This document shows, one piece after another, positions 927 to 17,020 of a DNA stretch of 26,192 nt (within the stretch, counting starts at the first letter, position 1; the number at the start of each line of letters is the position of its first letter). A program made the translations under genes and the position numbers. Source of the stretch: a virus; the IMG/VR virus record IMGVR_UViG_3300030098_002135, positions 1 to 26,192 of that record; one strand, given 5' to 3'. The notes beneath the pieces are model-generated. The model was not told the origin of the DNA. It was given only the letters and a program-made list of their open reading frames with translations, and did no database searches.

Positions 927-1055
927 CGACGGTTCCCCTCCATTACCGTCGTCACCTGGGCCGTAAGTTTTCAAATTGTCTTACGGCCCCAACTGGGACG
1001 TAGGGGGTTTTCTGGCTCCTCACCTAGCCACTACGTCCCTACACGGGGGGGTGTA
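927..1055 (+). ncRNA. Tandem stem-loop array in non-coding leader
   Basis: The 250-nt gap between 925 and 1176 holds consecutive perfect inverted repeats. Stem 1 is CGACGGT (927-933) with ACCGTCG (945-951). Stem 2 is GGGCCGTAAG (958-967) with CTTACGGCCC (980-989). Stem 3 is GGGACGTAG (995-1003) with CTACGTCCC (1031-1039), containing a nested TGGCT/AGCCA (1013-1017/1026-1030). Stem 4 is TACAC (1040-1044) with GTGTA (1051-1055). A weaker GTCAG/CTGAC stem lies at 1079-1110. None has the T-run expected of a simple intrinsic terminator. It could be a structured leader of the downstream xis/int operon, a separate small RNA, or a factor-dependent termination or processing region. The strand is assigned by the flanking genes; the DNA symmetry itself is strandless. 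Confidence 0.5.
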
Positions 1056-1150
1056 AAGTCAAGAAGATTGGTATCGATGTCAGGTTTTTTACTCCTAAGC
1101 TTGGTCTGACTTGAGCCATTCTTTTAACTCGCAACTGGCTTTGCATCCCC

Positions 1151-2100: not shown

Positions 2101-2876
2101 ATCGTTACACGGTAGCCATGCAGCCCAGCAAACAAGAGCGTCTATTCCATTCCAAACTGAGAAGCTACTTCGGCAAAGTAGATCTCGCTGGCATTACAGC
2201 GCATGACGTTATCGAAGCCGCGCAGAAGCTATATCCCCACGCCAAGAACTCCACAAAGAACCGTCAGGTCGTTACGCCCATGTCAGCCGTCTTAAATTGG
2301 TGCGCTGATGTATCCGATGGCAAATGGCGTCAAAACATCCGCATCAAGTCATTTAAAGAAGCCAAGCCCGTTCATCGACGTCCGGCCACCAACGTTGAAC
2401 AGATTTTGTTAGATAACACGACAGGCGATAAGCATCTGCTGTTTGCCATTCTATTTGGTCAGGGGTTTCGGATCACTGAAACACTAGGCATCGAATGGGA
2501 CAACATCGACATGGATCGCCAGACGATCATTCTTTATGTCGGCAAGGCCAAAGAAGAAAAAATTATCCCAATTGAAGATTACGCTTTTTCGTTGCTGAAA
2601 AAGCGTAAAGACAGAACTGGCCGTTTGTTCAGATGGAAAAGTCGCCAAAGCGTCTATGGCTGGCTCAACCCTCTTAAAAAAGAATTAGGTGTTCGTTTCA
2701 CACCTCACATGGCGCGGCATGAATTTGCCAGCGCTCGTAACGAAGTTGGATCGACGCCCAGCGACCTTAAAGAGGCAAGCAGCTGGACCACGATTCAAAG
2801 CGTTGAAAGGTACACGGAAGTTGATCTGAAACAGGCAAAAAAGACGGTAAATCGCGCAAAACGAGGGGGAGAATGA
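1896..2876 (+). CDS. int: Tyrosine recombinase (phage integrase)
   Basis: This encodes 326 aa. ATG 1896 has AGGGAG ten bases upstream. A basic N-terminal arm-binding-type region (about 1-60) precedes a SAM-like core-binding helical domain (about 62-150) and the catalytic domain (about 160-320). The catalytic residues are readable: Arg192 in GFRITETLG, Lys217 or Lys219 in VGKAKEEK, His271 and Arg274 in PHMARHEF, Trp297 in SSWTTIQS (Trp in place of the usual second His, as in Cre) and nucleophile Tyr306 in VERYTEV. The length is normal for this class. The gene ends about 40 bp before a tRNA-Ser 3' fragment, the expected attP neighbour. The enzyme would integrate the phage into the host tRNA-Ser(GCU) gene. 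Confidence 0.95.
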   Translation: MPTVYKPNQRHGNANWIVRGRINGNQHEIAVEDATNKKTALRGWHAFVLRTEKARTRQAQALSFSDGLDRYTVAMQPSKQERLFHSKLRSYFGKVDLAGITAHDVIEAAQKLYPHAKNSTKNRQVVTPMSAVLNWCADVSDGKWRQNIRIKSFKEAKPVHRRPATNVEQILLDNTTGDKHLLFAILFGQGFRITETLGIEWDNIDMDRQTIILYVGKAKEEKIIPIEDYAFSLLKKRKDRTGRLFRWKSRQSVYGWLNPLKKELGVRFTPHMARHEFASARNEVGSTPSDLKEASSWTTIQSVERYTEVDLKQAKKTVNRAKRGGE

Positions 2877-2881
2877 GGGGG
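2861..2881 (+). repeat. ACGAGGGGG repeat pair, left of attP
   Basis: ACGAGGGGG at 2861-2869 is followed 12 bp later by the variant ATGAGGGGG at 2873-2881, over the last codons and stop of int. The same motif occurs twice more at 3073-3092, on the other side of the tRNA fragment and in the same orientation. Candidate arm-type integrase or excisionase binding sites. Confidence 0.45.
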
Positions 2882-2917
2882 AAAAATGGTAAGTCATTGT
2901 TTTATATGGGATTGCAT

Positions 2918-2980
2918 CTCCCCTGCTAAGGGAGTAAGGGTTAACGCCCTTCGTGGGTTCGAATCCCACCCTGTCCGCCA
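2918..2980 (+). other. attP: attP core: 3' part of tRNA-Ser(GCU)
   Basis: The anticodon stem is CTCCC (2918-2922) with GGGAG (2930-2934). The loop CTGCTAA has anticodon GCT at 2925-2927. A class II variable arm follows (AAGGG 2936-2940, CCCTT 2947-2951), then a T arm GTGGG-TTCGAAT-CCCAC (2953-2969), the acceptor 3' strand, a discriminator and an encoded CCA ending at 2980. The 5' half (acceptor 5' strand, D arm) is absent: the preceding bases do not fit it. It is therefore a tRNA fragment carried as an attachment core rather than a working tRNA gene. Integration here would rebuild the 3' end of the host tRNA-Ser. Phage genes on both sides identify it as attP rather than attL or attR. Confidence 0.85.
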
Positions 2981-3007
2981 AAAACTCCCCGTTTTTAGCC
3001 GTTTTCC

Positions 3008-3032
3008 AGCATTTATTCAAATGCTCGTTTTT
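3008..3032 (+). terminator. Hairpin with T-tract downstream of attP core
   Basis: AGCATTT (3008-3014), a 4-nt loop ATTC and AAATGCT (3019-3025) form a 7-bp stem, followed by CG and five T (3028-3032). A shorter AAAAAC/GTTTTT hairpin sits just before it (2980-2996). The stem is A/T-rich, so it is a weak candidate. It could end int transcription or serve the rebuilt host tRNA after integration. Confidence 0.4.
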
Positions 3033-3072
3033 CCGTGAACATACCCTAAACATGCCCTCTGCGTACCTCAAA

Positions 3073-3092
3073 ACGAGGGGGAAACGAGGGGG
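3073..3092 (+). repeat. ACGAGGGGG repeat pair, right of attP
   Basis: Two exact copies of ACGAGGGGG at 3073-3081 and 3084-3092, 11 bp apart, matching the pair left of attP (212 bp between the first copies of each pair). The last copy also serves as the Shine-Dalgarno region for the gene at 3099, so part of the conservation may reflect ribosome binding. Confidence 0.45.
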
Positions 3093-3098
3093 AAGATT

Positions 3099-3728
3099 AT
3101 GTGGCGTAAAAAGCCCGGCGAGTCAGAAGCCGAGTTCCGTGACCGCAAGCGCCGTATGGCCGCTGCGATGGCATACAAGGAGAAGAGGATGGCTAAAGAA
3201 CCTTCACCAGTAGAATACGCATTATTCGATAAAACCAACCGGCGTTGGTATGTGATGTGTGCATCAAAAAGCTGCAACAAAAAAGTCAGCACATCATTCA
3301 GCACTGGCGCAAACATGCTGGTAGCAAAATTCAAAAATAAAAGCTGGAAGCATATCAAAGGTCAAAAATGGATATGCCCTAGCTGTCAATCAAAGAAACA
3401 ATGTGCAACCTCAACGGGAGGAGACCTCGATATGGATAGAGTTGTTCGTCTGCAAGAAAAACACGAAGTCAGCACCGCAAAAGCCAAAGCGGCAAAGCGC
3501 CAGGCCATCGCGTTACTTGAAGACGAGTTCGATGTCGATACCGGCACCTATAAAGATGGAAGCTCCGACAAAACAATCGCGGAGCTAGTTGAACTGTCGG
3601 AAAGCGCAATCGCCAATTTACGGTCTGACTTGTTTGGTGATATTAGGGAAAAGACCGAAATCGAAAAGCTGCGTGACGATATGTTCAAGCTGCTTGACCG
3701 ACTAGATAAGTTGGAGAAACAAAGTTGA
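3099..3728 (+). CDS. Zinc-motif and HTH-like protein, unknown role
   Basis: This encodes 209 aa; ATG 3099 lies behind GAGGGGGAA. The N-terminus is very basic (about residues 1-35). Residues 40-100 contain Cys54 and Cys59 (CASKSC) and Cys93 and Cys96 (CPSC), a likely zinc-binding unit between aromatic strands. Residues ~120-175 contain an EKHEVSTAKAKAAKRQAIA helix, a FDVDTGTYKDGSSDKTIAEL segment and VELSESAIANLRSDLFG. The 'G.SD..IAE...(S/V)...V..(L/I)R...FG' pattern is found in phage HTH-like proteins. The C-terminal 30 residues form a coiled coil (LRDDMFKLLDRLDKLEKQ). It stands alone after attP as the first gene of a three-gene operon, so it could be a regulator of the lysis-lysogeny choice, but nothing proves this. 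The stop overlaps the next ATG (TGATG). Confidence 0.6.
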   Translation: MWRKKPGESEAEFRDRKRRMAAAMAYKEKRMAKEPSPVEYALFDKTNRRWYVMCASKSCNKKVSTSFSTGANMLVAKFKNKSWKHIKGQKWICPSCQSKKQCATSTGGDLDMDRVVRLQEKHEVSTAKAKAAKRQAIALLEDEFDVDTGTYKDGSSDKTIAELVELSESAIANLRSDLFGDIREKTEIEKLRDDMFKLLDRLDKLEKQS

Positions 3729-4372: not shown

Positions 4373-5304
4373 ACTTCTGTTACCTCCCCCCGAAACTCAA
4401 CAATCCCCGGTTCAACCACATGAACCACTTCCGGCCAGCGCAGTTTGCCTTTCTGGAACGTCAGCACAGCAAACCCTGATCGCCAGTTGCGTGGGTTGTC
4501 CTCTGTATAATCACGAAATTGTGGCCCATGTGTGTCCGCAAGCGTCCCTGTGTCTACACCCCACCTTGTTCCATTATAGTCTGCATACGGCGTCACCTTG
4601 AGGCTGTGCAGATGCCCCGTAACCATCGTAAGGCCCGACCCCAACGTGTTGTTATGCGCGGCATGGATACCGCCCTTCCATCGATGTTTAATCATCACAT
4701 TGCCATTAACCATTAGTGACCAACCGTTAAGCCAATTCGGAAAATGGTCCTTTAAATGCAATCCATGTACGTTTGCATATTCGGGAGCAACCTGGGCCAA
4801 CCGACTTTCAAACCGAGCATCGTGGTTGCCTAGCGTCCAGATAAGCCGTGCTTTCTTTGCCGCTGCTTCGATCTCAGATAGCCGCTCTATGCAAGTCGTG
4901 ATTTCTTCTTCTACACTAGGACGCGATTCCCAGGCTATAGGCGCATGCCGCGATATAGAAGCGCCATCAAACGCATCTCCGTTCATCACAACCGCTGTTG
5001 GCTTGAGCTTCTTTATAAAATAAAGAAACGCTCTGTGTGCCGTCGTTATAACGTCAGGCCAGTAATGTGCATCGCTGCCGACAAGCACAATCCCATCATC
5101 AATTGTTAATTGACATCTTTCTGGATGGAAATTTGTTGGGTTATTGCTTGGCGCATAAATAGGTCGGTTTAAAGCTTTCTCTAAACGGTTTCGACGCAAG
5201 TAAACAGCGCGTTCGCTTATGCCTAACTCTTTGCTAGCATCAGTAGCACCCATAGTTGCAAAAAGCCGAATAAATTCTTCATCATCACATACTGGTAAAG
5301 CCAT
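4369..5304 (-). CDS. HTH-metallophosphoesterase (calcineurin-like)
   Basis: This encodes 311 aa from ATG 5304; the frame is open upstream, but that part overlaps the endolysin gene. Residues ~8-45 form a helix-turn-helix (FIRLFATMGATDASKELG, then ISERAVYLRRNRLEKAL). The catalytic domain has the ordered metal-binding motifs of calcineurin-type enzymes: GSDAH (77-81), NGDAFDG (108-114), GNHDARFE (159-166), IKHRWKG with His207, and GHLHS (230-234). These bind two metal ions and hydrolyse phosphoesters. Phage members with an N-terminal HTH are common; proposed roles include DNA processing or phosphatase activity, and the substrate is unknown. It starts 20 nt inside the endolysin gene end and is coupled to the zinc-ribbon gene by an ATGA overlap. 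Confidence 0.85.
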   Translation of the reverse strand: MALPVCDDEEFIRLFATMGATDASKELGISERAVYLRRNRLEKALNRPIYAPSNNPTNFHPERCQLTIDDGIVLVGSDAHYWPDVITTAHRAFLYFIKKLKPTAVVMNGDAFDGASISRHAPIAWESRPSVEEEITTCIERLSEIEAAAKKARLIWTLGNHDARFESRLAQVAPEYANVHGLHLKDHFPNWLNGWSLMVNGNVMIKHRWKGGIHAAHNNTLGSGLTMVTGHLHSLKVTPYADYNGTRWGVDTGTLADTHGPQFRDYTEDNPRNWRSGFAVLTFQKGKLRWPEVVHVVEPGIVEFRGEVTEV

Positions 5305-6785: not shown

Positions 6786-7322
6786 TCATGTCACTGCTGG
6801 ACCAGAAGTTGCCGCCCAATAAAGAAACATGCCGATCCCGCCAGCAATGGCCGCAACTATTAAGCCCTTGCCAATCTCAAACAGGATTTGCTTGCGCCGT
6901 TCTGCTCGTTCTTCAGCTAAAAGTTTTTCTTTTAACTCCCGCGCCTTTTTCTCAGCGACACGCCTTTCACGTTCTTTTAATATTAGATCCCAGGTCGTTG
7001 GCTCATTAGCTGCGTTCGGCCACTTGCGATTGATCTCGTCCTTCAGATCCGCCAGCTGTTGATCTAGCTGCTTCTTTTCAATAATTGCCGCAGCACTTGC
7101 TGACATCGACGTTTCGCTGCCATCATCAGCGGCACGTTTTTGAAGTATAGATTTATTTTTCTTGCCGATAGAGCTTCCGGCTTCACGGGATTTGTTTTGA
7201 TCGTGTTGTTCTTTGGCATGGAACAAGCCATCGATGCCATGAGCGATTTCTTGGACGCCCTTAGCCGACTTAACCAGCGTTTTTGTTGCTGCGATTGCTG
7301 CTGCTACTGTGAGAGGGTCCAT
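6786..7322 (-). CDS. Coiled-coil protein with C-terminal membrane segment
   Basis: This encodes 178 aa. It opens with a helical Ala-rich segment (DPLTVAAAIAATKTLVKSAK), then a polar middle. A strongly charged coiled coil (LKERERRVAEKKARELKEKL, residues ~115-147) ends in one transmembrane segment (about 152-171, LIVAAIAGGIGMFLYWAAT). It is therefore probably tail-anchored with its bulk in the cytoplasm. Similar proteins lie between tail-fibre and lysis genes in marine podoviruses, but I know no defined function. Candidates are a holin/antiholin component or a membrane scaffold. It stands between the fibre-related genes and the lysis genes. Confidence 0.6.
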   Translation of the reverse strand: MDPLTVAAAIAATKTLVKSAKGVQEIAHGIDGLFHAKEQHDQNKSREAGSSIGKKNKSILQKRAADDGSETSMSASAAAIIEKKQLDQQLADLKDEINRKWPNAANEPTTWDLILKERERRVAEKKARELKEKLLAEERAERRKQILFEIGKGLIVAAIAGGIGMFLYWAATSGPAVT

Positions 7323-8602: not shown

Positions 8603-9907
8603 TTAGAACCCAAAGACGACCGCTTTGCCGGTCGTTGAAATTGAACTGTTCATCGATCCTTGAACGTCCACAACGCCCGTGCCGTTTGGAGCCAGGGTGA
8701 TTGCACCATTAGCCGCGTCCGTAATTACAATCGTACCTGAATTGGTGCCGCTGTTACTGCTGATCTTCATATCAAACGCGCCGTTAGAACTAATATGACC
8801 GATTTCGCTGCCACCGCCGACGCTCACCAAATCAGTCTTTAGAACAACGTTGCCAGTTCCGTTAGGATTGATGTCTACGTCAGCATTTGACGCACTGGTA
8901 ATATCACGCCCATTAACATCTAAATCGCCGCCCAATTGTGGTGATGTATCATCTACCAAGTCCGACATATCGCCTGAACCACTAGGGCCAGTATCGCCCT
9001 GTGGACCTTGCGAACCTGTTGCTCCTAACGGGCCAGACCTCCGGATCGTCCAATCCGTTTTAGTGCCAGACCCGCCTGTATTTGCCGAAGTCAGCGTCAA
9101 TGTTGTACCGCTGTAGCTGGCAATTTGGCCGTGCATATAATTGGAAACACCGGAATTGCTGGTTGCGATAACATAATCGCCAGCGACAAAGGCAAGGCCG
9201 GATGCCACCGTAAACGCTTTGGAGCCGGTGCCTATGGAAAGTGAAGTTGTTGAACTGGCTCCGCTTAAAGTGGTCGCTGTACCAGACGCCGTTGAAGAGG
9301 AGCTTGCTGCGGACGTTGCAGAGCTTGCTGCGGACGTTGCAGAACTTGCAGCCGCGGCTGCTGAACTTGCCGCTTCCGTGGCTTTTGTCGCCGCTGCTTC
9401 AATCTCTGCACTTGTCGCCCCTAGCTCTAAGCCAGCATCAGAACTCGCAACCAACACTTTAGGATCAGTGGTTGCGCCATCCGGCCAGTTTAACGAATAG
9501 CTTTCAGTTGACGTAAAAGGGCGTGAAACGCTACGCGCCAGTTTCGTCTCCAGCCATTGCATAATGGCAAAAATCTTATCTAACGTTGTATTGAGAGTTG
9601 CGATATTGAAGATACCCGCAGCCGGGAAATCATCAGTACGCTCTACAGCTACATCACGTTCAACCGTAACGGTGACGTTTGTTAGCGTAGAGCCATAGGT
9701 AATTGTACCGCCCGAAAACCCATCATCTACAGCCGTGCCGCTTATGGTGTAATGCGTGGTAATCGTTTTCAAAACGCCATCGACATACACCTTAATATCG
9801 TTCGTGGAGAAATACGGCCACGGGATCGTAAACGGCCCTGTCGAGCCGCCAGATCCTACGGTGTATTGGACGCGAGGTGTTGCGTCAGCGATTGTTATCT
9901 GTGCCAT
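8603..9907 (-). CDS. Tail fibre protein (T7-type N-terminus)
   Basis: This encodes 434 aa with GAGG before the ATG. Residues 1-150 match the T7 gp17-type attachment domain found in podovirus fibres (VQYTVGSGGSTGPFTIPWPY, then IKVYVDGVLKT, LTNVTVTVERDVAVERT, FNIATLNTTLDKIFAIMQ and the KLARSVSRP stretch). Residues ~165-208 are an Ala/Ser-rich repeated stretch predicted as trimeric coiled coil. Residues ~292-312 contain a short collagen-like run (GPLGATGSQGPQGDTGPSG). The C-terminus is a beta-rich shaft (DVDINPNGTGNVVLKTDLVS and similar). It would anchor at the tail and carry the small proteins downstream. A 21-bp tandem repeat lies in the Ala/Ser region. Confidence 0.88.
   Translation of the reverse strand: MAQITIADATPRVQYTVGSGGSTGPFTIPWPYFSTNDIKVYVDGVLKTITTHYTISGTAVDDGFSGGTITYGSTLTNVTVTVERDVAVERTDDFPAAGIFNIATLNTTLDKIFAIMQWLETKLARSVSRPFTSTESYSLNWPDGATTDPKVLVASSDAGLELGATSAEIEAAATKATEAASSAAAAASSATSAASSATSAASSSSTASGTATTLSGASSTTSLSIGTGSKAFTVASGLAFVAGDYVIATSNSGVSNYMHGQIASYSGTTLTLTSANTGGSGTKTDWTIRRSGPLGATGSQGPQGDTGPSGSGDMSDLVDDTSPQLGGDLDVNGRDITSASNADVDINPNGTGNVVLKTDLVSVGGGSEIGHISSNGAFDMKISSNSGTNSGTIVITDAANGAITLAPNGTGVVDVQGSMNSSISTTGKAVVFGF
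9300..9341 (-). repeat. 21-bp tandem repeat in tail fibre gene
   Basis: GAGCTTGCTGCGGACGTTGC plus A is present twice in exact tandem (9300-9320 and 9321-9341, + strand reading), with a diverged third unit after it. Each copy encodes seven residues of the Ala/Ser-rich region, so units can be gained or lost without breaking the heptad register. Confidence 0.85.
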
Positions 9908-12900: not shown

Positions 12901-13742
12901 ATCATATCGTCTAGGCGTTGGAACTCATCGATGTCGCCAGAGTCCATTGCTTTGGCTCTTGCCGCAACAAGGCCATTATAACTATCGTCAGGGACATCAA
13001 CCGGCTTAACTTTTGCGGTTTTTTCAGCGTCACTTAACGCGTCTGCGGATTCTACAACATTCTCTGTTGTTGCCCCACGCCGCTGACCCATAAGTTTAAG
13101 CGATACGCCTCCAAGCACAGCCGTCAAACCGACAGCCAGAGCAGCGTCTTCTATCCGACGATCTGGCTGCATCTCCATCAACGCAATTTCTTCTAAGCCT
13201 GTCAGCCCTACTCCTGCTCTGACCGCTCCTGCCGTTCGCGCAACCATCGATAGTGCTGCGCCAGGGTTTTTCAATGTTCCAAGTATGCTTCCTGCCATTG
13301 TTGCCAAACCTGATTTGGCACGGTTTTGGCGCTCAAAAATGTCCTTCCGAACAATTCTTGCATAATGTTCTGTGTCGGTAGCAGAGCGGGAGTGCTGGAG
13401 TATAAAGTCCCAATAATTTGAGGGTAGGGACAAAAGGTTTGGGTCTTCATATACAAGGTAATCAGGGTCAGGTTGAGCAACGGACCTCAACGCATCTCGC
13501 GTTGTCTCCATCCGGCTCATAAAGCCTTTGCCCCTAAGATTGTTGTACACCGTGCCAAAGATATTGCTATCCAGCCAAGAATCGCCAAATGCCGCCATTT
13601 GCTCAGATAACGGTGCGCTGCCTAACGCCAGCGTACTTGGACTGCCCTCATAGACCTCTCGACGCGGCACAAACTCACTACGCGGCTGGAAAATACTAGG
13701 GTGGCGTCCACCTGTTATTTCAGCTGTAAAGGCGTCTTTCAT
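9954..13742 (-). CDS. Internal virion (ejection) protein with HExxH motif, gp16-like
   Basis: This encodes 1262 aa, the largest gene here, coupled to the previous gene by ATGA. Size and order (third of three large proteins after tail tubular B) match the T7 gp14-gp15-gp16 ejectosome. Residues ~201-218 are hydrophobic (ALAVGLTAVLGGVSLKL), and another hydrophobic stretch is near TTLLTGALAALPDLGNII. The protein carries a zinc-metalloprotease signature, VIEHELAHADHLP, with His926, Glu927 and His930, preceded by FKTYDDFKQF and followed by an AYENRMNEIAFKRM helix that could supply the third ligand. I see no lysozyme or transglycosylase signature. It is likely ejected into the cell envelope to form the DNA channel; the protease motif could help cross it. 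Confidence 0.8.
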   Translation of the reverse strand: MKDAFTAEITGGRHPSIFQPRSEFVPRREVYEGSPSTLALGSAPLSEQMAAFGDSWLDSNIFGTVYNNLRGKGFMSRMETTRDALRSVAQPDPDYLVYEDPNLLSLPSNYWDFILQHSRSATDTEHYARIVRKDIFERQNRAKSGLATMAGSILGTLKNPGAALSMVARTAGAVRAGVGLTGLEEIALMEMQPDRRIEDAALAVGLTAVLGGVSLKLMGQRRGATTENVVESADALSDAEKTAKVKPVDVPDDSYNGLVAARAKAMDSGDIDEFQRLDDMIDELPFGPWNRQVDEGDGGPYAPPPPKDAPNDPDTFRPVSDRRKDFDPEGEAAAEDNWLTRLRMSPLNRIATSGSNAARRVLYELAESPYLQIKNMSGVASFLPADRLRTIRWMAPMFQSVAESEAAYARYVTRMGNNALGEPLEYQAFMREAGRAKARIDDTGYVHDVPEVMEVAHIWNNKVYKPLGEKAKSMGMLTSDLRRARFDAYKRLKEANRAIKEEGADPSGVLKIKEEITKLTARIKEIEANPLSNSYLNRIYNKDLIRANPEKFLNILRTAGRGRSEEEAVETMKAILKQNAHNADEDAVGLAGDLMRNREDIVGPARSLRERTLADIPDEALEEFLERDIAALGKYYAHRMGSDVEIHEKFGSIDLYDQINRIRKEWGARIEEAKGKPTEIARLERLRDQEIDDIKVVRDRVRGTYGMADDPDSWTHRSIRLAKMYNATTLLTGALAALPDLGNIIIKNGLSKTFGDLYQGMIVNNAGIKLALEDAQLAGEAWDMYSAMRAMQMADLDQAMAATSQFERNAASFTQTFFNISLINPWNVSVKAMTSLVAGTRIIDESIKWAAPLRNSAKAKIDFGPNAKGKPVSYNRNQNTVYIDNDLLRQQYANKIWKSPKAPGVNALPDDAFKTYDDFKQFVIEHELAHADHLPIKGIESRNPRHGAKYAAYENRMNEIAFKRMGVRQEPSTKFENTLLAKGGIDADMAERIAVQFETHGFVDGRVRLANAGKWTDEGAKEAYLAALGKEINMTIVTPGNTELPNIFGGGLERLNAATRQRAADRRAKMAEGERLSIPETAEHVFMSPQMAQMMFQFKAFGVAATSRVLVPGMQMKDASFILGMAHTAAIGMLVEKARQDEMGYEAAKWEDTFVGGVKRSLPIGWLGDVDTALDTISDGRFGIGAMVGASQTERSGMDKLGALGGPVVGQIDNFANIISGLSDGHIDPMDANAIRKSWLLNQTFWMDNAFDFAEDAITTRP

Positions 13743-16700
13743 CGGGAGCCTTTAGGCGGCTTATTGGTCACTTTATAAGGATACCGATCCATATCGGGAA
13801 GAAGTGCATCACCAACAGCATCGCCAACCATGTCAACTGTTGCGCGAATGTCTTGAATAGCTTTTGCACCGCCGCGTGGCCCTTTGACCGGCTGGTTCGT
13901 CACTTTATAAGGGACCCGATCCATGTCGGGGCGCATAGCACCACCAACAGCATCCCTTGCTTCGCCTAACGCATCACCAAAGAAATCAACTGTCTCACGG
14001 ATGTCGTCCATCCCTTTTGGGATGCGGAAAGGAAAGCCTTTGCCTTTGCCTTCGGCTTTCACAAATTGGTCAACCATTGTCATTTCTTCAATGGCGTTTC
14101 GAAAAGCAGTCTGCAAATTTGCATTGCCGCTCTTCTGCGCATTTCCATACATTTGAAGTGCCGTGTTGGCAAAAAACAACGGTCCACCAGCTTCCATGTG
14201 ACGCTTAATACTTTCGTATTGGACTTTTGCTTCTTCTGCCTGATGCACAGCTACGTCAGTATCGGTAATGTCTTTTTCAAGAATTTGCACCCACTGGTCA
14301 TTGCCGCCGCGTGTGTCAGGCTTAAATAAAATGCGGATTCGATCTCCGTCATAATCGCCGCCGTTTTCAATTCGCACACGCCCTTCATTAACGGCATTAT
14401 TAAAATCTTTGAAAACTACTTTTGGCAGCTGAGTGGCATCCCGCCCCATATAAAAAGGGTCCATCTGGTTCTCAAACCCACCAGCACGAGTAACCATATC
14501 TTGCATTACAGATGGAAAGGCAAAAATTAATTGATACCAGGGATAATCACTTAAATCTGTTGGCGGATAGATGCCATATTTGGCAACCATCTTGGACTGC
14601 TTTGCGATTTCTTCTCTTGAGTTGCGGATAAGCGACAAAACAAATTTAATCGGATCTTCAACGCCCCACTTTTTTGTCGCATAGCGTTCGTAGGACCAGG
14701 CAGTACCCGTAAATCCTTCATGTCCCGCAACCTTAGTGATGCCAATATACGGATGAGTCTTTTTTAATGATTTAAGCGCATCAAAGTCATCAACAGCCCG
14801 GCCCTGCAAAAAGCCTTGGGTTTGTTTTTCGCGTTTGGTTAAAACTACTAAATCGGACGTTACTTTTGTTACTGTTGGCGTAACAACCAGATTTGTTGAT
14901 GCTGCACCAACACCGGGGTCGCCTTCTTCGGCACGACGACCAACTATGGCATCGCCCATTCTGTCTATCCAAGTGGCATCACGCGCCAAAGTTTGAGCGG
15001 CGTTCATAACGCTCATCTCATTTGTGCTATTTACGCTTATTCTAATGTTGGCACGAAGACCGACATCTGCGTCGGATGTGCCTTTCATGTTCTGTATTAG
15101 CTTCAGTAAGGGGCCATACTTATTATCCTCTTTTCCTTGGGCGATGGCGTCTTTCATCATTACGAGGTTTCGTTTTTCTCTTTCATTGAGGCCAATAATA
15201 TTTGTCATGCCCGAAAATTTCGCTGGCCCCGCAAAGACTTTGCCATCTTTGCGCTGTATGCCTTGCCACGGAGCAAGATTCTCGTCTTCCAACGAGTCTG
15301 CAATTTTAATAACTATAGGAATAAGCTCAGGGTCAGTAACTTCGCCACGGGCGGCGGATATCATTAATGTTTTAAGATCTTCTGGTATTTCACCGCGATA
15401 TTTGCCGACGCCAATAACCCAATCGGCAACGCCCGGCGCTTTGAGGTTCTTGTGATCCTTAAGCCCAAAACCATTCGCGTCATGCGTAAAAACTGCCGCT
15501 TTCTCCGTCGGCGTCATGCCCGTTATAGGGATGCTACGCTCAGTGTTATTGTCAGCTATCGCAATAGCATCGGGCGTCTGCGCGTCTTTGATAGCTTTGA
15601 GTATTTCTTTCCGGTTGTTAAAATAGAAAATGTCGGCTTTTTTTGAATACACTAAATGCGTCATATGAATTGGCGAAAGTACACCCGCTCTAATGCCACG
15701 AATTATTGTCTGTAAGCGCCGGGGGTCGGTTTTTTTCAGAGTTTTCTGTTGCGCTGAAACGCCTTTAATTATCGCCAAAGCAACCGCATGCTGATCGGCG
15801 GCAGTCATTGTATCTTTAATGTCAGATAATTTGGGGAACTGTCCTTTTTCAATTTGCAGTTCCCAATTTCGTCGCGCTTCTGCCGACTTTGACTTGAAAT
15901 TGGCATCGATGTCTTTCTCAGACGTACCAATCAACCGGTGCATACTTCTGTAACGCGCAACGGTCATTTCGATGCCAGCATCCTTATACATCCGGCGGAT
16001 TTGTTCTTCGTTAAATAACGAAGGGTCAGGCAAGACCCGTCTAAGGATGTCGGCTTCTTTTGCTGCGTCAGCGATTTTTCGTTCTTGGCGGCGACGGTTA
16101 TCCCGCGTTATGGCAGAATTAATCATTCTATCTGCCGTAGCAGCCATTGCCTTTTGTTCAGCCGTTGTAACCCCGCTGAAAGGCTTCTTCATAAATTCTT
16201 GGACAACTTCGTAAGCGCCCATAATGTTGTTTTTAGCAAGAAGGCCGCGTATTTCGCCTGTCAACGGCCCAGAAATATTGTTCTTGTCTAGCTGATGAAG
16301 CGCATCTTGATATTCCTCACCTGTAAGAATGCCATTTTCTTGGGACTGTTCTAAACTGACGCGTAATTCGTCTTCCAAGGTCTGACGCAACCCTGCGTCA
16401 AGTTCATTAGCCTCCGGATCAGCCCCCGTTTCGTCTAAACGTTTAAGGTTGTCACGCAACTTATCTTGGTGCGCAATAATCTCGGCTTTATTATCGTCAA
16501 ACTCTTTCTGTGCAATCACCGCTTGTGCGTAATTGACTAACCCTTGGCGATGCGCTTCAGCCTTTAGCCGCGCATGTCCCTCTAAATCCTTACCGGCATT
16601 TGCCACAAGCTGTTCGGCATAAGGACGGAACACTTTTTCAACAAGATCCGCACCCCCATTAGGGTCCAGTTTTATCTGGTTTTGGACATCCGCCGCTTTA

Positions 16701-17020
16701 GTGGCGAGAGCGTTCTGCATTGCCGCGTCATACGCTTGGCGGGACGCAACTGCGAACGCTTCAATGCCTTTGTTCCCTAAACCTTGGGGTGCCGCCATGC
16801 GCGTAAGCATGCCGTCTTCCGACAGAATTACGGAATTAAGGCCAGCCTCTTTGCCTTTCTTCATCGATGCTTCAGCTGACGCCGTATAGAAATCTTTCAT
16901 CAAGCCAAGCGCACTATCCGCTGTTCGCTGTAGTTGTCGCGCTTGGTCACGAAACTCTTGGCCTCTTGCGCCAAGGTTTGTTTTTATTCGGGTGCGGCCT
17001 CTAAACCTGTTTTCAGCCAT
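13739..17020 (-). CDS. Internal virion protein, gp15-like (core/channel)
   Basis: This encodes 1093 aa, starting 4 nt after the previous stop. It is the second of three adjacent ejection proteins, with the size and helical, charged make-up expected of T7 gp15-like proteins. The N-terminus is a long helix (QEFRDQARQLQRTADSALGL). The first ~450 residues are mainly alpha-helical and charged (for example FDDNKAEIIAHQDKLRDNLK). No enzymatic motif is evident. The last ~90 residues consist of two copies of an imperfect ~41-46-residue repeat (DIR.TVD..GDA.G...PDMDR.PYKVTN.P.KG). Assignment rests on gene order and general features; primary sequence similarity is low in this protein class. Confidence 0.7.
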   Translation of the reverse strand: MAENRFRGRTRIKTNLGARGQEFRDQARQLQRTADSALGLMKDFYTASAEASMKKGKEAGLNSVILSEDGMLTRMAAPQGLGNKGIEAFAVASRQAYDAAMQNALATKAADVQNQIKLDPNGGADLVEKVFRPYAEQLVANAGKDLEGHARLKAEAHRQGLVNYAQAVIAQKEFDDNKAEIIAHQDKLRDNLKRLDETGADPEANELDAGLRQTLEDELRVSLEQSQENGILTGEEYQDALHQLDKNNISGPLTGEIRGLLAKNNIMGAYEVVQEFMKKPFSGVTTAEQKAMAATADRMINSAITRDNRRRQERKIADAAKEADILRRVLPDPSLFNEEQIRRMYKDAGIEMTVARYRSMHRLIGTSEKDIDANFKSKSAEARRNWELQIEKGQFPKLSDIKDTMTAADQHAVALAIIKGVSAQQKTLKKTDPRRLQTIIRGIRAGVLSPIHMTHLVYSKKADIFYFNNRKEILKAIKDAQTPDAIAIADNNTERSIPITGMTPTEKAAVFTHDANGFGLKDHKNLKAPGVADWVIGVGKYRGEIPEDLKTLMISAARGEVTDPELIPIVIKIADSLEDENLAPWQGIQRKDGKVFAGPAKFSGMTNIIGLNEREKRNLVMMKDAIAQGKEDNKYGPLLKLIQNMKGTSDADVGLRANIRISVNSTNEMSVMNAAQTLARDATWIDRMGDAIVGRRAEEGDPGVGAASTNLVVTPTVTKVTSDLVVLTKREKQTQGFLQGRAVDDFDALKSLKKTHPYIGITKVAGHEGFTGTAWSYERYATKKWGVEDPIKFVLSLIRNSREEIAKQSKMVAKYGIYPPTDLSDYPWYQLIFAFPSVMQDMVTRAGGFENQMDPFYMGRDATQLPKVVFKDFNNAVNEGRVRIENGGDYDGDRIRILFKPDTRGGNDQWVQILEKDITDTDVAVHQAEEAKVQYESIKRHMEAGGPLFFANTALQMYGNAQKSGNANLQTAFRNAIEEMTMVDQFVKAEGKGKGFPFRIPKGMDDIRETVDFFGDALGEARDAVGGAMRPDMDRVPYKVTNQPVKGPRGGAKAIQDIRATVDMVGDAVGDALLPDMDRYPYKVTNKPPKGSR
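13766..13912 (-). repeat. Tandem ~132-bp repeat at end of gp15-like gene
   Basis: GTCACTTTATAAGG occurs at 13767-13780 and again at 13899-13912 (+ strand reading), 132 bp apart. Each lies in a longer imperfect unit encoding 'DIR.TVD..GDA.G' and 'PDMDR.PYKVTN.P.KG'. The whole duplicated segment extends to about 14015. It is a partial gene-end duplication that kept the reading frame. Confidence 0.75.

Follow-up and report, generated by a model that had tools for sequence, protein, structure and literature searches.

The window, by which we mean the whole 26,192-base virus record analysed here, comes from an uncultured temperate phage whose structural genes lie on the - strand and whose left module lies on the + strand; its portal protein has its nearest counterpart in Pelagibacter phage Hodr, at 48.6% identity. 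Little is known, as far as we are aware, of the choice between integration and lysis in small temperate phages whose bacterial hosts are uncultured, and a structured leader placed right before a run of genes that ends in the integrase gene, int, offers a testable control point for integration. The + strand order of the left module is a winged-helix gene, gene B, an SSB-like gene, the element of interest, a Zn-ribbon gene, two small genes, a xis-like ORF and int. The features that matter are these:

212-619, + strand: gene B, a conserved recombination-type gene directly before the SSB-like gene
632-925, + strand: SSB-like gene, 97 aa, immediately 5' of the element; phrog_18187 (E=2e-10, function unknown)
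926-1155, + strand: the structured non-coding element as a whole, with folding excess and with neither ORF homologues nor an Rfam match
927-951, + strand: hairpin H1, perfect 7-bp stem 927-933/945-951 (100%), loop CCCCTCC
936-941, + strand: anti-Shine-Dalgarno CCCTCC, exact complement of the GGAGGG at 1166-1171
958-989, + strand: hairpin H2, perfect 10-bp stem 958-967/980-989 (100% on the stem check)
995-1039, + strand: hairpin H3, 9-bp stem 995-1003/1031-1039 with a nested 5-bp stem 1013-1017/1026-1030
1045-1153, + strand: long-range domain P4, arms 1045-1061/1136-1152, a second helix inside, G-U pairs used
1166-1171, + strand: GGAGGG, the Shine-Dalgarno that serves the Zn-ribbon gene; covered in the minimum-energy fold as predicted
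1176-1370, + strand: Zn-ribbon-type small protein (CxxC...CPxC), first gene after the element
1363-1554, + strand: small gene of the coupled run, overlapping the Zn-ribbon gene; phrog_17558 (E=6e-9, function unknown)
1538-1723, + strand: small gene of the coupled run, 61 aa, overlapping both neighbours
1720-2100, + strand: xis-like ORF, 126 aa, overlapping the start of int in a different frame
1896-2876, + strand: tyrosine integrase (int); PF00589 (E=1.8e-20), phrog_1
2926-2977, + strand: candidate attP core, likely the 3' part of a tRNA-Ser gene, directly after int

Some of these labels are firmer than others. The product of 632-925 is called SSB-like by operon position only: its gene has homologues in two relatives (L005 and L023) and fills the slot that true OB-fold ssb genes fill in two more (L090 and L091), its structure model is of low confidence, and a profile comparison of the protein with true SSBs gave no match. 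A preliminary description of this DNA had placed the stems between an SSB-like gene and the coupled run that ends in int; the second half of that placement stands as given, and the first half stands with the label so qualified. The xis-like ORF would be a helix-turn-helix (HTH) protein by analogy with its counterpart in L090 (7384-7731), which has a weak HTH_17 match (E=4e-5, under the curated cut-off).

Past the end of int, the stretch 2926-2977, read by eye as the 3' part of a tRNA-Ser gene, is likely the attP core; it gives a sub-threshold match to a model covering an antisense tRNA 3' half and a match to a tmRNA T-arm. L090 has a tRNA-like stretch (8647-8706) likewise 3' of its integrase. 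The direct repeat AAACGAGGGGGA occurs in three copies within 2859-3104, a stretch that takes in the end of int and the beginning of the gene after it; these copies, which flank the attP core, are possible arm-type integrase sites. Three further repeats may be recorded in passing: a hairpin in the coding part of int (2579-2608), with a loop of 6 bases, whose 12 bp make up the window's longest perfect short-loop stem; an exact 21-nt tandem duplication (9300-9341) within the - strand gene 8603-9907; and a 74-nt imperfect duplication (13749-13954) near the 3' end of the large - strand gene 13739-17020.

What, then, occupies the space between the SSB-like gene and the Zn-ribbon gene? The gap, 926-1175, is non-coding, and the element takes up about 230 nt of it. 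The preliminary description had named a conserved ORF as the finding that would undo its idea of an RNA here; none crosses the element, and a coding region was rejected on six-frame fragments that are without credible homologues. A search of the window against Rfam 15 returned no family match, riboswitch and leader cis-regulatory models included, which is consistent with a new structured RNA; the sub-threshold matches that did appear, to mir-577 in the window and to FMN in L005, fall far short of the gathering scores and are taken as chance. The stems of 7, 10 and 9 bp and the nested 5-bp stem first described are all verified. A fourth stem (TACAC/GTGTA, about 1041-1056) and a weaker fifth are better read together as the one long-range domain P4, whose 17-nt arms are imperfect (82% complementary, with G7/C7 at the base) and reach 1152, so that the extent once given as 927-1115 becomes about 926-1155, and the element ends about 10-12 bases 5' of the Shine-Dalgarno. 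Nor is this the only long non-coding stretch of the left module, as had been said: another, 2877-3098, follows int. The remark that no stem carries a T-tract holds, for 926-1175 contains no + strand terminator-like site (a G+C-rich stem followed by a T-tract). No sigma-70-like promoter was found near the element, with a consensus that may not be that of the host.

The array folds beyond what chance would give, and in that sense it is real. The stretch 900-1180, which the preliminary description had proposed for folding, has a z of -5.24 and is matched by none of 200 shuffles; 926-1175 has a z of -5.67, matched by none of 100. A still lower value, -8.08 for 926-1155, comes from boundaries set after the fold was known, and a fair figure is therefore -5 to -6. 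In a coarse scan of the 26 kb (520 stretches, 25 shuffles each) the element ranks second. On re-testing with 100 shuffles the rival stretches fall to between -2.5 and -3.45; the fixed scan stretch 1001-1200, whose boundary lies within the element, likewise falls, to -3.0.

Strand matters as well. Hairpins H1 to H3 (926-1040) fold on either strand, with z of -6.1 on + and -4.2 on -. Together with neighbours such as the SSB-like gene and the conserved recombination-type gene B, these perfect stems are what one would want of a DNA site, at which hairpins extruded from single-stranded DNA serve as a replication origin or as a landing place for the products of the genes just upstream, SSB-like or recombination proteins; a DNA nature was at one time put forward for the STAXI motif, discussed below. 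We consider a DNA site distinctly unlikely, however: 1041-1175 folds beyond chance only as + strand RNA (z of -4.28 on + against -1.44 on -), because G-U pairs are used there. This preference of the long-range half suggests an RNA transcribed with the genes, and the predicted folds point to the element being part of the + strand messenger.

Comparison with other phages helps, in an unexpected way. Searches for the leader at the DNA level in phages, in plasmids and, by a hairpin pattern, in viral contigs gave no relative, no prophage copy turned up in genome contigs searched with gene B and Zn-ribbon profiles, and the contigs of two near relatives (L004 and L002) stop before the leader. Four relatives have the same flanks, the Zn-ribbon gene being a conserved neighbour in L005, L023, L090 and L091, and all four have a non-coding gap between ssb or the SSB-like gene and the Zn-ribbon gene. 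Comparison of the window's leader with these gaps found nothing shared in sequence. Three of the four nonetheless fold in excess (z of -5.23 in L005, -3.93 in L023 and -3.11 in L091); the L090 gap, at -0.77, does not go beyond chance. Relatives that keep the genes and lack the stems were what the preliminary description would have counted against an RNA, and the outcome is divided: the window's own stems are missing from all four, and three carry another strong structure in their place. Its broader proposal, that the integration genes have a leader containing a new structured RNA or riboregulator, is partly supported: it fits the strand bias, the want of an Rfam match and the folded leaders of the nearest relatives, and is weakened by the leader of L090, with its lack of excess folding. 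Hodr, which has a related B gene, runs from the gene after B to the next within about 20 bases, with no gap, and the leader is thus not universal.

The leaders of L005 and L023, unlike the window's, can be aligned with each other. In their 5' domain (38 pairs) eight pairs have changed and none is broken: two differ in both partners, and the other six stay paired by way of G-U on the + strand; in their multi-branched 3' domain three pairs have changed and none is broken. These counts refer to the leader of L005 and L023 and are biased towards the structure used, since it was predicted from these two sequences themselves; slid controls leave only 40-51% of cells paired, and column shuffles do as well in 133 of 500 cases, a test to which two rows give no power. 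That changed pairs stay paired on the + strand supports an RNA leader, and since a G-U pair on that strand is an A-C mismatch on the other DNA strand, six changes of eight speak against the DNA site too. The L023 Shine-Dalgarno is only partly paired. In L091 a compact H-type pseudoknot (7069-7140) fills the 98 nt that separate ssb from the Zn-ribbon gene; its stems CGATAGGGG/CCCCTATCG are interleaved with GGAGTGGT/ACCACTCC, and none of 60 shuffles equals it; L005 also has a single H-type pseudoknot of interleaved stems (0 of 60 shuffles). L023 has an extra Cys-containing 107-aa gene (4722-5045) between the SSB-like gene and the leader, not present in L005 or the window. Several other candidates were set aside: L171 has the Zn-ribbon gene without a leader, in a different gene context, and the "structured gaps" of an automatic scan (L143/L159/L162 and L068/L138) resemble short coding regions that a crude gene caller missed.

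How might structure be kept in place while sequence is not? One answer is messenger processing or stability, with the hairpins acting as sites for RNase III or another nuclease, or as stops, that set the half-lives of the ssb and distal parts of the messenger with no switch involved. Only the presence of strong hairpins would then matter, as in T7-like phages, which would account for the sequence turnover; the element is intercistronic, its stacked perfect stems lack a T-tract, and L005, L023 and L091 keep structure at the place without the sequence. Yet the long-range closure beside the Shine-Dalgarno, like the multi-branched 3' domain of L005 and L023, is more elaborate than a cleavage hairpin, and L090 has no excess folding at all. 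We regard processing as a doubtful explanation, though one that must be taken seriously.

The reading we prefer, tentatively and at a little less than an even chance, is that of a cis-acting structured leader amid the early + strand messenger, which would separate translation of the Zn-ribbon, xis and int genes from that of ssb and keep it low. The three tandem hairpins and the long-range domain lie directly 5' of the Zn-ribbon Shine-Dalgarno, and by covering it the leader would limit translation from the Zn-ribbon gene through xis to int. The H1 loop, CCCCTCC, is able to pair with that Shine-Dalgarno. In the lowest-energy predicted fold CCCTCC (936-941), helped by ACCG (945-948) pairing with CGGT (1159-1162), would cover GGAGGG at the expense of H1. 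Prefix folds suggest that H1 is the first to form during transcription; it would compete with the covering pairing, and a kinetic delay, a bound protein or RNase III processing could decide between open and closed forms and so set the amounts of Zn-ribbon protein, Xis and Int. The predicted energies are -108.4 kcal/mol with the Shine-Dalgarno hidden, -103.0 with H1 formed, and -99.0 with H1 formed and the Shine-Dalgarno free; Shine-Dalgarno pairing is 0.997 with the whole leader and 0.63 without H1. Shuffled leaders hide the Shine-Dalgarno nearly as well (mean pairing 0.89, with 4.7% reaching the native value), so that the predicted folds lend weak support to a two-state translational switch. 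Put more broadly, we probably have here a control or processing element that changes fast and belongs to the messenger of the integration genes.

Could the hairpins act on transcription instead? An RNA of the antitermination or anti-pausing type would bind the polymerase of the host and carry transcription through to int, much like the HK022 put RNAs, which suppress termination without protein factors; tandem stem-loops without T-tracts would suit it, and use of the host polymerase is plausible, no RNA polymerase gene being seen in the window. The element lies mid-operon, though, with no promoter-like site near, and its relatives share no sequence with it, which is unexpected of a specific polymerase contact. 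We judge this improbable, and rank the rivals named so far as RNase III processing, then a DNA role, then antitermination.

A free small RNA, located between the genes by chance, was among the earlier suggestions, and the search produced a further find that bears on it: a covarying non-coding RNA of about 390 nt, outside Rfam, in more distant phages that have gene B, where it follows an SSB-like and an HTH-like gene (L053, 6066-6460, and also L078, L079, L051/L043/L042, L062 and L077). In ten of its pairs both partners have changed, where shuffles give 3.5 and none of 500 reaches ten; pairing holds in 97% of cells, compared with 38-45% for slid controls. In L077 its hairpin 1 has GGGCCAC/GTGGCCC in place of GCCCCGT/ACGGGGC. 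The helix TTAGAGGCGG/CCGCCTCTAA, which the automatic consensus missed, carries balanced insertions in its two arms in L051 and in L079. It has no match in Rfam or in the records of a phage collection. Long, covarying and rich in invariant unpaired bases, it resembles an RNA with a function of its own, and the window's element might be another such. Against this, the window's fold ends just short of the next gene's Shine-Dalgarno, a promoter and terminator of its own were not found, and a covariance model of the L053 core scores well on L053 itself only, with no match in the window up to E=1. Its intercistronic place within a gene run also makes a free RNA less likely, and we hold that suggestion to be quite improbable.

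The two elements are alike in plan, each a chain of hairpins followed by a long-range domain that ends near the next gene's Shine-Dalgarno (in the L053 family a helix over it is predicted across the six members). They differ in sequence, in the next gene and in the extra HTH-like gene that the L053 family has in between, so that the likeness is one of layout and not, as far as shown, of shared ancestry. A bolder view, which we think unlikely, is that phages conserve an RNA slot between ssb and the integration genes, its place and plan kept and its sequence replaced outright, in which unrelated, undescribed RNAs (those of the window, of L005 and L023, of L091 and of the L053 family) would sense the state of phage or host and gate integration and excision.

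Among described motifs the nearest by gene context is STAXI (RF01728; Weinberg et al. 2010, PMC2864571), a pseudoknot in two or three tandem copies near ssb, integrase, antirestriction and other DNA-handling genes, whose nature as RNA or single-stranded DNA is discussed there. The element shares its setting, between an SSB-like gene (a true ssb in L090 and L091) and the xis/int run, and the L091 and L005 leaders share its interleaved H-type stems, with one pseudoknot each; the window, in contrast, has neither tandem pseudoknots nor one beyond chance (19 of 60 shuffles reach its best interleaved stems), and the RF01728 model gave no gathering-score match, and none listed at low thresholds, in the window, L005, L023, L090 or L091. 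The HK022 put RNAs, which follow early promoters and consist of about 70 nt in two neighbouring stem-loops whose sequence is shared (PMC9378689), are also tandem stem-loops in a phage early messenger. By description they differ from the element, which is 230 nt long, has three hairpins and a long-range domain, lies mid-operon and has no sequence common to its relatives.

Intercistronic RNase III hairpins are familiar from T7-like phages, where they are strong and usually single. The element resembles them in placing strong hairpins between the genes of one messenger, and departs from them in having three, with a long-range domain that ends near a Shine-Dalgarno. Translational leaders, riboswitch-like or controlled by a protein, have competing folds of which one covers the Shine-Dalgarno. 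The element's predicted folds compete in the same way, although it has no known ligand, binding protein or binding core and matches no Rfam riboswitch. It is best filed as an undescribed structured leader of a known kind, a phage cis-acting RNA, with its function inferred.
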